NCBI GenBank assembly: GCA_026018925.1
Contig: JAKSZU010000009.1
Span: 68,312,949-68,376,948, forward strand
DNA: 64,000 nucleotides
Reading direction: 5' to 3'
Source: Tupaia tana
Lineage: Eukaryota > Chordata > Mammalia > Scandentia > Tupaiidae
Of this stretch, positions 26,607-58,434 are shown one piece after another; positions within the stretch are counted from its first letter, which is position 1; every line of letters starts with the position of its first letter. A program made the translations under genes and the position numbers. The notes under the pieces are model-generated. The model made no database searches and was not told the origin of the DNA. It worked only from the letters and a program-made list of their open reading frames with translations.

Positions 26607-26944
26607 AATTATCTGAGCTTTTTTTTTTCTTTATTTTTATTATCATCATAATCTTCTTTATATTACATTGGAGTACATATAACTTTACAGTGTATTACAT
26701 TGCTTTCTCAAAAGAGAATGCCATGCACGTCAGTCAATACAGAGACATTAATCTCCCCGCTTCAACATTCAATATCTTTTCTATGTTTTTCCCAATCATT
26801 ATTATTATTATTATTCTAATTATTTTTTAAAACAGTCAATCACTATTTCTCATTTTGCTTGTGAGATTTTTTTTGTCTTTTATTTTACTTTCTCAGATTA
26901 ATTAAATTCACATTTTACATAAAGTCCCCATTATGATGTATACA

Positions 26945-26946
<2 letters not shown>

Positions 26947-26988
<42 letters not shown>
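26947..26988. repeat. (AT)n microsatellite in the tail of copy B
   Basis: About 18 perfect AT units between the second and third L1 3'UTR-like modules. Probably grown from an internal A-rich tail. Confidence 0.9.
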
Positions 26989-26990
<2 letters not shown>

Positions 26991-27881
26991 TTCAACAGAG
27001 AACTCTACATTTTTTTGGTGTTAAATGATTCTTCCCTTTGCCCCTCATGCCCACTCTCTACCACCCACTCCCTACCACCCACTCCCCTCCCTTACAGCCT
27101 CTGGTATCTATATTTATCCTTTCCGCTATCATATCATCAGATCTTTCTCCCTCTGCCAGAGTGCTGATATATCTTTTTTTCATTGCACATCTTTACAGTG
27201 TACAGCATGGTTTTTCCCAGCATGAGTACAGTGCACATTAGTCAAGACAATGATATTACCATATACATTCTCATCAACAGACCACTTTTCATTTTTGTGT
27301 CTATTAAGTGTGATGTTTGTTCCCTGAATCCCTCCCTTCCGCCCTCTATCACTCATTCCCATTACCTCTCCCATACCATCTCTAGTATCTGCAGTTGCCA
27401 TCCCTGCTATTATACCTTCCAGTTCTTTCACTTTTTTTTTTTCGATTATCAGCTCATAAAGTTTTTTACAATAGGGAACATAGATTCTATTCAGGGTTGG
27501 GTTAAGGGTGGGTCTCGTGCAGTTCCACAATTGTAGGTGAGTCTCCATGGTATACAGTTTCAGGAAAGCGGTTCTGGTAAGCAGAGATGGTTATCAGTTG
27601 ATGCGGCACAGCATCCATCTTGTGATTACCGGGAATGGTGTTGTAGGGATCTGCAGCGCGAGTCATCCTCGGGTATCTGGCTTCCTTAAGAATGGTAGAA
27701 TAGTTCTTGTTTTTCCCTGAGGTAATGCAGGGCTGGTAACCATCATCTTCTCACTGTCCATAGGCAGAGAAAATCCTCCTATACAATATATTTCTCAATT
27801 GGTTTAAGACAGCTAAAGTTTCTTTCTGTTGCTTATAGTTGCAAGTTCTTAATCCTTGTTTTCGGCTTCAGTTTGCTGCCC

Positions 27882-28140
27882 ACAACCGGCGGCCACACGC
27901 AGGCGCAGGCCCGGCGGCCACGCGCAGGCCCGGGAGCCACGCGCAGGCCCAGCGGCCACGCGCAGGCCCGGTGGCCACACTCAGGCCTGGCGGCCTCGCG
28001 CGGGCCCGGCGGCCACGCGCAGACCCAGAGGCCTCGCACGGGCACAGGCCTGTTGACCATGCGCAGGTCCGGCGGCCACATGCAGGCCCGGCGGCCACGC
28101 GCAGGCCCGGCGGCCACGCGCAGGCCTGGCGGCCACACGC
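27882..28140 (-). repeat. GC-rich VNTR, 19-bp unit
   Basis: Minus-strand unit GCGTGGCCGCCGGGCCTGC, about 13 copies with substitutions and a few indels. CpG-dense, against an AT-rich background. Unit length differs from copy A (about 25 bp), though both share the GCGTG-GGCCG-GGG-CTGC skeleton. Confidence 0.88.
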
Positions 28141-28380
28141 CAGCTCTGAGCGCGCGAATGTGCCCAGGGCCCAGCGCCACCTCCTGCTCGCCCGCCCAGC
28201 CAGAGAAAGGCAGGACGGCAACCTCGGCTGGTCCGCGCCGCCGGCCCGCGTCGGTGCCGAGCGCGGGACACACCCAGTGCCGGAGAGGCAGCGGAGGCTG
28301 GGCGGTCCGGACTGTGGCACGCGGAGCAGAGGAGAGCGCTGGGCCCCGCACCCCACAGGCGCCCGCCCGATTATCTGAAC

Positions 28381-41098: not shown

Positions 41099-41113
41099 AA
41101 AAACACAAACCTC

Positions 41114-41600
41114 GAAAGCCTGCTCAATGGCTCCTGACATCTAGACATGCTGGGAGAAAGGAAGATGTCCCACTCCTAACTGGGCCTCCAGCATACAAAA
41201 CCCACGTGAACAGCCCTTCTTCAAGAGAAAGCCTGCTCAATGGCTCCTGACATCTAGACATGCTGGGAGAAAGGAAGATGTCCCACTCCTAACTGGGCCT
41301 CCAGCATACAAAACCCACGTGGTAGGAAAACCCCTTTCATATCTCCTGTCTCTGAATCAATCTTTGTCTCTCTCTACCTCTCACTCTCTCTCTCTCTCTC
41401 TTTCTCTCTGTCTGTCTGTCTGTCTTTTTTTTTTAATTTTTGCTTTTTAGAATTTTTTAAGGTGAGGCTTCTTACAGGGACCTTTGGCCCCTCCCTCCTA
41501 GGCCTTTGTTTTGTTAATAATCCCCTCTGCTCCTCCCAGAACAGCCCTTCTTCAAGAGAAAGCCTGCTCAATGGCTCCTGAGATCTAGACATTTTTGTGC
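41114..41600 (+). repeat. 5' monomers of composite copy A (type 3)
   Basis: Unit beginning AACAGCCCTTCTTCAAGAGAAAGCC and ending AAAACCCACGTG. GAAAGCCTGCTC recurs at 41114, 41227 (113-bp period, near-identical units) and 41558 (partial). The first unit starts within the monomer, as expected of transcription from a monomer promoter or of 5' truncation. A CT-rich run (41366-41426) separates the second and third. Confidence 0.85.
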
Positions 41601-41823
41601 CGCGCGGTTTTCTAATTTTTGATTTTTATTGAAATTTTTTTAATATTAATTTTTCTTTTTTAGATTTATTCCAAAGCTCTTCTCTTTTTTTTTCTCTGTT
41701 TCTTGTCTGTTTTTTTTGTTGTTGTTGTTGGTATTGTTTCCCTCTCTCTGCTTCCTTTTCTGCACACTTCCCAACCCTCATATTAAACTTCAAAAGTTTG
41801 GGAAGAAACCAACCATCCACCAG

Positions 41824-42310
41824 ATGACTAGAAATCGCTGCAGGACCACAAGAAATATGGAGAACCAGGAAAATGCCCCTCCTCCAATTGAAACGGATAG
41901 CTCCTCTTCATCCACACACAGTTCAAGGGAATTCATGGAAATGTCCGATAAACAATTCAGATCATTCATAATGGCAAAGCTAACAGAGATCGAAGAGAAG
42001 AGAGACAAGGAACTGCTGAAGGGGAAGGAGAAAGGAGTTGAAGAGTTCTAGGAGGTGAGGAAATTCATGCAAGATCTAAAAGAGGAGTTTCACACTTTAC
42101 AAAAGAATCAGATGGAGCTGTTAGAGATGAAGGATATAATACAAGAAGTCAAAATCTCCCTTGAAAGTATTAAAAACAGACTAGATCATTCAGAAAATGG
42201 AATCTCTAATGTAGAAGAGAAAATGGCTGGCCTAGAAAGGTCCACCATAAAGACTGAGAAAATGGCCCAAAACTTTGAGAATAATATGGAAGAAGTACTA
42301 GATACAATTA
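41824..42310 (+). pseudogene. L1 ORF1 N-terminal part carried by the composite element
   Basis: ATG at 41824 opens MTRNRCRTTRNMENQEN, then the acidic/serine-rich stretch and the coiled coil (EMSDKQFRSFIMAKLTEIEE, ... VKISLESIKNRLDHSENGI). One in-frame TAG (42049-42051) interrupts it; the related copies have a CAG-like codon at this place, so a single transition explains it. The frame then stays open to the VNTR junction at about 42310. The RNA-recognition and C-terminal domains are absent, replaced by the VNTR. It is much better preserved than ORF1 in the other L1 copies here, which suggests a fairly recent origin. Confidence 0.82.
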
Positions 42311-45073
42311 AACGTCCAGGGGCGGCAGGCGGGGGCTCCGCTCTGCGTGCCGGCGTGTGGGGGTGGGGAGGCGGGCGCGGGGGCTCCAATCCACATGCTG
42401 GGGTGCGGGGTCAGGGCGCGGGGGCTCCGCTCCACGTGCCCTGTCTGGAGGTCTGGCCCGACGGGCTCTGCCCCACGTGCTGTGGCCGGGGCTCTGTCCT
42501 GTGTGCCATGGCCGGGGTCTGCCCCGCGTGCCGTGGCCGGGGTCTGCCCCGCGTGCCTCGGCCGGGGTCTGTCCCGTGTGCCGTGGCCGGGGCTCTGCCC
42601 CGTGTGCCGTGGCCAGGGCTCTGACCCCGCGTGCCTTGGCCGGGGTCTGTCCCGCGTGCCGTGGCCGGGGCTCTTACCCTGCGTGCCGTGGCCGGGGTCT
42701 GCCCCACGTGCCGTGGCTGGGGCCCTGTCCCGCGCGCCGTGGCCGGGGTCTGCCCCGCGTGCCGTGGCCGGGACTCTGCCCCGCGTGCCGTGGCCGGGGT
42801 CTGCCCCGTGTGCCGTGGCCGGGGCTCTGCTCCGCATGCCCTATCCAGAGGTCCGGCCCGACCGGGGCTCTGCCCCGTGTGCCGTGGCCGGGGTCTGCTC
42901 CCGCGTGCCATGGCCGGGTTCTGCCCCGCGTGCCGTGGCCGGGACTCTGCCCCGCGTGCCGTGGCCGGGGCCCTGTTCCATGTGCCGTGGCCCGGGTCTG
43001 CCCCCTCGTGCCGTGGCCAGGTTCTGCCCTGCGTGCCGTGGCCGGGACTCTACCCCGCATGCCGTGGCCGGGGCCTGCCCCGCGTGCCGTGGCTGGGGCC
43101 CTGTCCCGCGTGCCGTGGCCGGGGTCTGCACCCTGTGCCATGGCAGTGGTCCTGTCCCCACGTGCCGTGGCCGGGGTCTGCCCCGTGTGCCGTGGCCGGG
43201 GTCTGCCCCCGCGTGCCGTGGCCGGGGCTCTGCCCCGCGTGCCGTGGCCGGGGCCCTGTCCCGCGTGCCGTGACCGGGGTTCTGCCCCGCGTGTCGTGGC
43301 CGGGGCCCTGTCCCACGTGCCGTGGCCAGGGTCTGCCCCGCGTGCTGTGGCCGGGGCTCTGCTCCGCATGCCCTATCCGGAGGTCCGGCCTGACCAGGGC
43401 TCTGCCCCCGCGTGCCGTGGCCGGGCTCTGCCCCACGTGCCGTGGCTGGGCTCTGCCGCGCGTGCCGTGGCCGGGGCCTGCCCCCGCGTGCCGTGGCCGT
43501 GGTCTGCCCCGCGTGCCGTGGCCGGGGCCTGCCCCCGCGTGCCGTGGCCGGGGCCCTGTCCCGCATGTCATGGCCGGGGCCTTGTCCCACGTGCCGTGGC
43601 CAGGGTCTGCCCCGCGTGCCGTGGCCGGGTTCTGCCCCGCGTGCCGTGGCCGGGACTCTGCCCCGCGTGCCGTGGCCGGGGCCCTGTTCCATGTGCCGTG
43701 GCCCGGGTCTGCCCCCTCGTGCCGTGGCCAGGTTCTGCCCTGCGTGCCGTGGCCGGGGACTCTACCCCGCATGCCGTGGCCGGGGCCTGCCCCGCGTGCC
43801 GTGGCTGGGGCCCTGTCCCGCGTGCCGTGGCCGGGGTCTGCACCCTGTGCCATGGCAGTGGTCCTGTCCCCCACGTGCCGTGGCCGGGGTCTGCCCCGTG
43901 TGCCGTGGCCGGGGTCTGCCCCCGCGTGCCGTGGCCGGGGCTCTGCCCCGCGTGCCGTGGCCGGGGCCCTGTCCCCGCGTGCCGTGACCGGGGTTCTGCC
44001 CCGCGTGCCGTGGCCGGGGCCCTGCCCCGCGTGCCGTGGCCGGGGCCCTGTCCCGCGTGTCATGGCCGGGGCCCTGTCCCACGTGCCGTGGCCAGGGTCT
44101 GCCCCGCGTGCTGTGGCCGGGGCTCTGCTCCGCATGCCCTATCCGGAGGTCCGGCCTGACCAGGGCTCTGCCCCCGCGTGCCGTGGCCGGGCTCTGCCCC
44201 ACGTGCCGTGGCTGGGCTCTGCCGCGCGTGCCGTGGCCGGGGCCTGCCCCCGCGTGCCGTGGCCGTGGTCTGCCCCGCGTGCCGTGGCCGGGGCCTGCCC
44301 CCGCGTGCCGTGGCCGGGGCCCTGTCCCGCATGTCATGGCCGGGGCCTTGTCCCACGTGCCGTGGCCAGGGTCTGCCCCGCGTGCCGTGGCCGGGGCTCT
44401 GCTCCGCATGCCCTATCCGGATGTCCGGCCTGACCGGGGCTCTGCCCCGCGTGCCGTGGCCAGGCTCTGCCCCCGCGTGCCGTGGCCAGGCTCTGCCGCG
44501 CGTACCATGGTCGGGTTCTGCCCCCACGTGCCTTGGCCAGGGTCTGCCCCCGCGTGCCGTGGCCGGGGTTCTGCCCCACGTGCCGTGGCCGGGGTCAACC
44601 CCGCGTGCCATGGCCGGGGTCTGCCCCGCGTGCCGTGGCCGGGACTCTGCCCCGCGTGCCGTGGCCGGGGTTCTGCCCCGCGTGCCGTTGTCGGGACTCT
44701 GCCCCGCGTGCCGTGGCCGGGACTCTGCCCTGCGTGCCGTGGCCGGGGTCTGCCCCCGCGTGCCGTGGCCTGGGTCTGCCCCGCGTGCCGTGGCCGGGGT
44801 CTGCCCCCGCGTGCCGTGGCCGGGTTCTGCCCCCGCGTGCCGTGGCTGGGACTCTGCCCCCGCGTGCCGTGGCCGTGGCCTGCCCCGCGTGCCGTGGCCT
44901 GCCCCGTGTGCCGTGGCCGGGGCTCTGCCCCCGCGTGCCGTGGCCAGGCCCTGCCCCCTCGTGCCGTGGCCGCGGCTCTGCCCCGCGTGCCGTGGCCGGG
45001 GTCTGCCCCGCGTGCCGTGACCGGGGCTCTGCCCCCGCGGGCGGTGGCCGGGATCTGCCCCGCGTGCCGCAAC
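42311..45073 (+). repeat. GC-rich VNTR, ~25-bp unit, about 100 copies, with higher-order duplication
   Basis: Typical unit GCGTGCCGTGGCCGGGGTCTGCCCC with 24-27 bp variants. A distinct spacer, GCTCCGCATGCCCTATCCGG, occurs at 42829, 43361, 44127 and 44401, with a diverged version at 42429. The block around CCCTGTTCCATGTGCCGTGG (42971 and 43682) and CACCCTGTGCCATGGCAGTG (43129 and 43841) repeats at 711-712 bp, so large blocks were duplicated. CpG is abundant. No sensible protein: open frames exist on both strands because the units lack stops. Confidence 0.95.
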
Positions 45074-45453
45074 CGCTGATGGCCGTCTCTGCTTTCCTGA
45101 GCCGCGTTCCTGAAACTGTGTTCCATGGAGATTCACCTACATTTGCGGGGCTGCACGAGACCCACCCTTGGTCTAGCCCTGAGTGCAGTCTACGTTTCCT
45201 ATTGTTGGGAACTTTATGATCTGATAATTGGAAAAAAAAATCATGTTTATCATAAAAAATAATTAGAATAATAATAATAATGATTGGGAAACATAGGAAA
45301 GATATTGAATGTTGAAGCGGGGAGATTAATGTCTCTGTACTGACTGACATGCATGACATTCCCTTTTGAAAAAAGCAATGTAATACACTGTAAAGTTATA
45401 CGTAATTCAATGTAATAAAAAAAATAGATAATAAAAAGCTAAAAAAAAAAAAA
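45074..45453 (+). other. 3' module of composite copy A
   Basis: 45074-45236 aligns to the minus strand of copy B around 27620-27450 (CTGATGGCCGTCTCTGC versus CTGATAACCATCTCTGC; TTCCTGAAACTGT; CTGCACGAGACCCACCC). Then 45265-45430 aligns to the last L1 3'UTR-like module of copy B. About 0.6 kb present in B is missing between them. The origin of the first block is unknown to me. The poly(A) runs 45441-45453, upstream of the TSD. Confidence 0.8.
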
Positions 45454-45468
45454 AAAAACACAAACCTC

Positions 45469-56870: not shown

Positions 56871-58165
56871 CTTCTAGAGATGAAGACAGTAATGCAGAAA
56901 TCAAGACCTCCTTTGAACGTACTAATAGCAGACTGGACCACACAGAAGACAATCTCTGAGCTGGAAGATAAAATCTTTGACTTAGATAAAACCACCAAAA
57001 ATAATGAAAAAAATTTTTTTTAAATAAGGGCAACATGTGGGAAATACTAGACACTGTCAAAGGCCCAAATATCTTAATAATAATATTCCAGAAGGTGAAG
57101 ATTCAGACAAGGGCATAGAAGTTCTAATCCATAAAATACGTACAGAAAACTTCTCAAAACTAGAGAAGCATTTAGCATCCAGAGCCAAGCATTCAGACAT
57201 CCAGACCCAAACACAGCAGATCTATTCCATGAAATGTTTGCAGAAAGCTTCCCAAACTTAGAGAAGCGTTTGGACATCCAGACCCCAAATAGAATCAACA
57301 TAAGAAGATTCTGTCCATGGCACATCATAGCCACAATGGTAAAAAGTCACAGAGAAATATTGTAAAAATGGGAAGAGAGAAATTATAAGTCACTTACAAA
57401 GGTTACTCTATTAGGCTAACATTAGACCTCTCAACCAAAACAATGGAGGCAAGAAAAAAATGGGGAAATATATTTAAAATACTAAAAGAAAAACAATTTC
57501 AACCAAAAATATTATAACTGGCCAGATTATCCTTCATATAGAAAGAACAAATAAAACCATTCACAGATAAACAGAAACTGAAAGAATTCACCAATACTAG
57601 ATCAGATCTTCAAGAAGTACTGAAGGGAGTACTACATCAGGAAAACTAAAGAAAGATAGACAGAAATAAGAGAACAAAAAACGGCCAAGTAAACAGCTAA
57701 CAAAATGGCAAGGACAAGTCTTCAAATATCAATAATAGTTTTGAATGTTAATAGATTAAATTCTCTAAACGAAAAACACAGGCTGACTGAATGGATTAAA
57801 AAAAATAGAAACTTCCTATTTGCTGCTTACAAGAAATGTGCCTCATAGATAGAGACTTTTATAGACTAAAAGTGAAGAGCTGGAAAAAGATATTCCATGC
57901 AAATGGAAATAAAAAAAGACTGGAGTCGTGATACTGATATCAGATAAAATAGGGTTTAAGACAATTCAGATGAGGCCATAAGTCAATATTGTCTTCCATT
58001 TTTCACCAATAAAGAGAAACCCATCTATGAACAAGGAATTATGAAACTCATTGAAAGATGGCGAAAGGTTATTGAACAAAACAGGCAGTATATCATCACT
58101 TGATCTTCACTCTATATGTTCGAAAAAACAGAAAAAAAGTCATGACTTTACCGACAACCCAATTT

Positions 58166-58434
58166 TTTTTTTTTTTTTTTTGAGAGGTTTTTCGCTATAG
58201 GGCGCGTGCGCTCGCCAGACAGACAGAGAGAGACATAGAGACAGAAAGCGAGAAATCACCCCCCAGGGGGGATGGTCACGCCGCAATCCCTTCTCCTCCA
58301 TTCTCCTCTCGGGATCTTGGGCACGCATGCACACGCGCCCGGCGTGAGTTGTAAGCCACCGGGTCCGAGACGCGAACCGCGGTCGACTACGTGGGAGTCC
58401 AGCGACATAGCCATTACGCTAACTGCTGGTTCCC
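58166..58434 (-). mobile_element. CYN-like SINE in the mariner right end
   Basis: TSD AACCCAATTT at 58156-58165 and 58435-58444, which is the mariner terminal repeat plus flank. Few CpG losses; second subfamily (GGGAACC, GACGCGAACC reversed). Young. Confidence 0.93.

Follow-up and report, generated by a model that had tools for sequence, protein, structure and literature searches.

We analyzed a 64,000-nucleotide stretch of the Tupaia tana genome (contig JAKSZU010000009.1, positions 68,312,949–68,376,948; hereafter the window) and find at 41114–45453 a complete retroelement insertion that joins the 5′ end of an L1-type element to a long GC-rich variable number of tandem repeats (VNTR) array and a two-part tail (Table 1). 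The insertion is flanked by a perfect 15-bp target duplication and carries poly(A) at its 3′ end, and its 5′ insertion site, aaactt/AAAAAC, is of the type expected from the L1 endonuclease consensus, in agreement with the duplication, TT/AAAA-type site and poly(A) reported in a preliminary description made from the sequence alone. The element opens with 1.8 copies of a 113-bp monomer that are 100% identical to each other in Tandem Repeats Finder (TRF), continues through the remainder of a 5′ untranslated region (5′UTR) into open reading frame 1 (ORF1, start at 41824), and passes at an ORF1/VNTR junction (42318/42319) into the array. TRF and the coordinates likewise confirm the order of 5′UTR monomers, ORF1 N-terminus and ~2.7 kb GC-rich VNTR given in that description, as well as its statement that the composite lacks ORF2: among the open reading frames of 41114–45453, no ORF2-like frame lies between the duplications.

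Table 1. Features of the composite insertion and of a second, related composite in the window
Feature	Position	Strand	Remarks
5′ target site duplication AAAAACACAAACCTC	41099–41113	.	exact repeat of 45454–45468
Promoter-type monomers, 113-bp unit × 1.8, as in HAL1-like family	41114–41321	+	TRF; 85–94% matches in all six HAL1-like loci L043–L048
Remainder of 5′UTR	41322–41823	+	41322–41803 matched full length at 80–86% in three HAL1-like loci (L045, L046, L047)
CT-rich tract inside 5′UTR	about 41367–41425	+	
Partial monomer remnant inside 5′UTR	about 41540–41592	+	
ORF1 N-terminal part, 165 codons, cut at VNTR junction	41824–42318	+	matches HAL1-like ORF1
TAG stop at ORF1 codon 76	42049–42051	+	CAG/Gln at same codon in HAL1-like L044–L048
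GC-rich VNTR, mainly 25–26-bp units, about 2.75 kb	42319–45069	+	TRF; edges conserved
Tail module 1, about 180 bp, unassigned source	45070–45249	+	80% identical to 27433–27609
Tail module 2, 3′ end of L1 3′UTR	45250–45440	+	88% to L042:7807–7999
Poly(A) tract, A-run extending into duplication	45441–45453	+	
3′ target site duplication AAAAACACAAACCTC	45454–45468	.	exact repeat of 41099–41113
Family B copy, older composite	26617–28369	-	head, 19-bp VNTR, middle, module 1, L1-type end
Family B GC-rich head	28369–28141	-	
Family B 19-bp VNTR	28140–27886	-	
Family B middle, ~276 bp	27885–27610	-	
Family B tail module 1	27609–27433	-	
Family B longer stretch, at least partly L1-type 3′UTR	27432–26617	-	

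Copy number, insertion hallmarks and age of the family

We searched the window's own assembly (2.95 Gb, 1,198 contigs) and found that the ORF1/VNTR junction is widely shared, with 597 matches to a 26-base junction pattern (≤2 mismatches) on many contigs compared to 0 for the reversed control. A 131-base junction-spanning probe returned 1,033 first-look candidates, and the 40 places scored among them, window included, are all 99–100% identical to it. Tail module 1 is more abundant still, with 1,591 matches to a 40-base pattern (≤3 mismatches; control 0). With limits that differ in this way (≤2 compared to ≤3 mismatches), junction matches amount to 38% of tail matches, a proportion that 5′ truncation of many copies would produce. 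Among 20 further tail loci fetched from the best-scoring 40 of 1,922 candidates, 16 have no head joined to the VNTR and four have a head reaching the monomers (L011, L012, L018 with two copies, and L019). L018 (C111:83375700–83385200) is an insertion cluster in which 9.5 kb contain two composites together with a copy of ORF1 that has 90% identity to the head and is interrupted by a short repeat.

Individual copies bear the marks of separate insertions. Exact duplications of at least 11 bp occur near the element ends in 16 of 21 copies, window included, and in 2 of 420 control pairs that mix the ends of different copies; the approximate 5′ end is 24 bases away from the duplication in L025 and 23 bases in L028, and L026 has an 8-bp duplication beside its end. 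The preliminary description had proposed a family in which many copies share the ORF1–VNTR junction and differ in their target duplications, with the junction's absence from every other locus as the contrary outcome, and the junction matches and copy-specific duplications establish that family. The 20 other tail copies all end in A-runs of varied length. Joined flanks align across the join (≥40 bases each side) to unoccupied paralogous repeats in four of 16 copies (L012, L013, L017 and L022), of which L013 only just passes the 40-base limit; L018 was dropped as a further case, its 5′ flank lying outside the matched repeat.

Divergence within the family is low among the best-scoring copies. Over a 512-bp ORF1 segment, 12 copies differ from their majority sequence by a mean of 0.72% (0 to 2.15%), and over the tail 25 copies differ by 0.26%, ten of them by zero. 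We conclude that 41114–45453 very probably represents a single insertion from a young composite retrotransposon family, non-autonomous and present in high copy number, hereafter family A.

Origins of the head, array and tail

The head is related to elements that carry ORF1 without ORF2. A 41-base pattern running from the composite ORF1 into normal ORF1 has 2,309 matches (≤3 mismatches; control 0), and the first six of these, all on contig C111 with 0 mismatches, were fetched as L043–L048. All six have a HAL1-like structure in which ORF1 runs on into its normal continuation, the ~950 bp read beyond ORF1 contain no match to ORF2 of the resident L1 elements L041 and L042 (0 of 6 loci), and one 3′ region is common to all. 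The ORF1 of the composite head is 92–95% identical to that of L044–L048, over 423 bp only in L047, and 88% identical to that of L043. L044 and L050 together make up one HAL1-like element end to end, with a 17-bp duplication, poly(A) and no ORF2; its 331-residue ORF1 frame contains both L1 ORF1 domains in Pfam (PF02994 and PF17490) and matches a solved L1 ORF1p structure in a Protein Data Bank (PDB) search. A pattern spanning the HAL1-like ORF1 end and 3′ region has 3,454 genomic matches (control 0). Judged by sequence, the relative of the composite head is a half-L1 (HAL1-like), ORF1-only family with 113-bp monomers.

Full L1 elements are also resident in this genome. L041 has an ORF2 frame of 1,290 residues from stop to stop and ten 129-bp monomers, and L042 has an ORF2 frame of 1,343 residues and 3.2 copies of a 158-bp monomer. 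Their ORF1 pieces are only 61–71% identical to the composite head and their monomers do not match its 113-bp monomers, and descent of the head from these open-framed L1s was rejected. The preliminary description assigned the head to L1; its sequence is closer to the HAL1-like family than to L041 or L042. Of 150 L1 reverse transcriptase places scored, more than 40 fall within frames of 1,290 or 1,343 residues without a stop, and the genome hosts two or more L1 lineages that have long open ORF2 frames and distinct monomers. Elsewhere, four open frames of 1,191–1,290 residues, each with an L1 reverse transcriptase domain, lie within about 150 kb at C315:148885–302471, and L1-type reverse transcriptase also occurs in frames of 2,962, 2,641 and 1,952 residues (C531:215849751, C309:202862567 and C309:210645176), which exceed the usual ORF2 length.

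The TAG stop at ORF1 codon 76 is common to 12 of 12 rows compared, representing 11 distinct copies (L029 is the window copy itself; L011 is not included), and the codon encodes glutamine in all five HAL1-like copies whose listed frame spans it (L044–L048). At most a 75-residue ORF1 start thus remains in the 11 copies, and a Pfam search of the composite ORF1 part recovered 0 families and no RNA-binding domain. The stop shared by 11 of 11 distinct copies indicates that the composite is probably noncoding.

The window array consists of about 100 copies of a 26-bp unit (TRF array 42463–45069) with 79–80% GC in its core. Pairing 34 junction places with 38 tail places among the matches listed gave 23 other copies with VNTR lengths of 633–2,547 bp, and the window VNTR, at about 2,750 bp, is the longest; the 11 junction places without a partner may reflect listings that give perfect matches first. 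Both edges are conserved. Read against the window copy at fixed offsets, all 10 rows compared keep 87–99% identity over the 300 bp that follow the junction, and all 23 rows compared keep 89–99% over the 100 bp that precede the tail. Deeper in the array, identity is 57–97% toward the junction and 33–92% toward the tail; the lowest values on the tail side belong to truncated copies, and length differences alone can depress a fixed-offset value. L019:6186–8890 (oriented) is a composite variant without ORF1 in which the 5′UTR meets the VNTR at a short homology (about CTC). Because of this homology and the lack of a GT donor at the join, deletion or template switching would fit better than splicing as its origin.

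The tail is composed of two modules. The preliminary description called the end L1 3′UTR-like, which is correct only for the last ~190 bp (about 45250–45440; 88% identical to the 3′ end of L042); the preceding segment, 45070–45249, is a separate module. This module 1 recurs in the window at 80% identity as part of the second composite, family B, which has a short 9-bp candidate duplication, TCAGATAAT, at 28370–28378 and 26608–26616. A 36-base family B pattern has 1,637 genomic matches (control 0), and, window copy aside, the best match to a family B query is 82–92% identical at all 39 scored places (from 2,964 candidates). Family B looks older than family A by this divergence, and family A may have taken over its tail while shortening the L1 3′UTR. 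Pfam and PDB searches with an 82-residue open stretch of family B gave no informative match. When the 26-bp unit was compared with the 19-bp unit of family B, 115 of 500 shuffles reached the observed score, and in six other array or head comparisons between the families the score was reached by 20, 42, 29, 376, 123 and 378 of 400 shuffles. The two arrays scored 74.5 against each other, 56.5 with one reversed and 44 with one reverse-complemented.

Alternative explanations and a proposed life cycle

Several other accounts of the locus can be weighed against a mobile composite family. The length of the window VNTR (2.75 kb, compared to 0.63–2.55 kb in the 23 others measured) would suit a single L1 or HAL1 copy altered by local VNTR expansion in a one-off rearrangement, but the 597 junction matches on many contigs rule this out, and the differing target duplications and the identical stop codon in all 11 distinct copies speak against it too, leaving a vanishingly small probability. 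Spread of the copies by segmental duplication or recombination instead of retrotransposition could account for the two composites inside 9.5 kb at L018; it is nonetheless highly improbable given the differing target duplications, 3′ A-runs and 5′ truncations, the paralogous empty sites in four of 16 copies, and the failure of the window copy's own flanks to match any of the 20 fetched loci (plus strand). An alternative that accepts mobility would make the element more than a purely noncoding parasite, with an ORF1-related 75-residue peptide that functions by recruiting L1 ORF1p. The 75-residue frame is open with few substitutions in all 11 distinct copies, but in copies as young as these an open frame is no sign of selection, RNA-binding domains are absent, and in the ORF1p layout most of the coiled coil falls beyond the stop; we regard such a function as unlikely.

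Some observations count against a mobile composite of HAL1-like, VNTR and older tail origin, or limit how far that interpretation reaches. The copies read are the best-scoring ones and hence biased to young insertions, and five of the 21 (L009, L023, L024, L026 and L027) have no duplication of at least 11 bp. Within the head, the 5′UTR is only 80–86% identical to HAL1-like loci, compared to 88–95% for ORF1, and in the six loci read, the first listed of the 2,309 matches, we did not find the immediate source of the head. The 3′ end shared with L042 may reflect descent only.

We observe directly the modules, the fixed junction, the copy number, the target duplications, the 5′ truncations, the shared stop and resident L1s with long open ORF2, and propagation of the composite could proceed as follows. 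RNA polymerase II would transcribe the element from its HAL1-type monomers, and the resulting poly(A) RNA with an L1-like 3′ end would be taken in trans by L1 ORF2p, perhaps supplied by the L1 lineage that donated the 3′UTR. Target-primed reverse transcription would then copy the RNA into A-rich targets. Such trans-mobilization by L1 is suggested by the insertion hallmarks. The family itself may have been born by the union of a HAL1-like head, which had the stop codon by then or acquired it soon afterwards, with a GC-rich array lying 5′ of the tail (module 1 and the L1 3′UTR) of an older composite family.

Relation to hominoid VNTR composites, HAL1 and L1

PMC4432496 describes the VNTR composites SVA, LAVA, PVA and FVA as specific to hominoid primates, with a common CT-repeat/Alu-like 5′ region, a central VNTR and differing 3′ ends, and reports conserved unit arrays at both VNTR ends in SVA and LAVA. 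Compared to this account, the Tupaia tana element is similarly non-autonomous, with L1-type target duplications, poly(A) and 5′ truncation, and its unrelated ends enclose a central GC-rich VNTR that varies in length and keeps its edge units. These features substantiate the SVA/LAVA-like architecture proposed in the preliminary description. As in the hominoid group described there, several families have one part in common and differ in the rest, but families A and B share their 3′ part whereas the hominoid families share their 5′ part and VNTR. The 5′ part of the composite is half-L1 and not CT-hexamer/Alu-like: HAL1-like matches to the 5′UTR and ORF1 cover 41114–42318 fully (Alu was not compared directly) and leave no room for such a region, and the CT-rich tract of the composite falls inside the HAL1-like 5′UTR. 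At the 3′ terminus, where the hominoid elements have SINE-R, LA, PTGR2 or FRAM parts, the last ~190 bp match the resident L1 3′UTR (module 1 lies outside this comparison). The composite resembles SVA and LAVA in the way it works but is no member of that group.

HAL1 is defined in PMC5753468 as an L1 derivative coding only for ORF1p, and the family related to the head is likewise an L1 derivative with ORF1 alone. L044 has an ORF1p frame and no ORF2. In the composite, ORF1 is reduced to its first half, interrupted by a stop at codon 76 and devoid of Pfam domains, and is followed by other sequence. The composite has in common with L041 and L042 the target site type and poly(A), and with L042 the 3′ end, and differs from both in its 113-bp monomers (compared to 129 and 158 bp) and in lacking ORF2, with its endonuclease and reverse transcriptase. 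In the titles and abstract openings of the literature searched, which took in no repeat database and few subscription papers, we recognized no VNTR composite outside hominoids, and titles and abstract openings likewise contained no recognizable report of half-L1 elements or monomers of this kind.

We favor, with moderate confidence, an independent origin of VNTR composites in a mammal outside the hominoids, twice or more in succession: first the older family B, then the young family A, in which a half-L1 head and a new 26-bp VNTR replaced the earlier head and array. A non-hominoid host agrees with the abundant short repeat of the window, which is not recognizable as Alu, and with the L1 monomers, which hominoid L1s are not known to carry. 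If the favored reading is correct, RNAs that exploit L1 have converged on the GC-rich VNTR, and one parasite, the half-L1, has supplied material for another, family A, which in turn depends on a third element, L1. The purpose of the VNTR has so far been studied in one lineage only, as composites are described as hominoid-specific in PMC4432496; given a second, unrelated origin that involved another head and tail, the roles of the array, the 5′ region and the L1-like 3′ end could be studied by comparison. Such an origin would also show that half-L1, L1 and composite have traded modules in a genome with more than one L1 lineage that still has a long open ORF2.

Rfam and ARAGORN tRNA scans of the whole 64-kb window gave 0 hits. 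The window also contains many copies of a short interspersed repeat of about 270 bp with an A-rich end, for example at 58163–58434.

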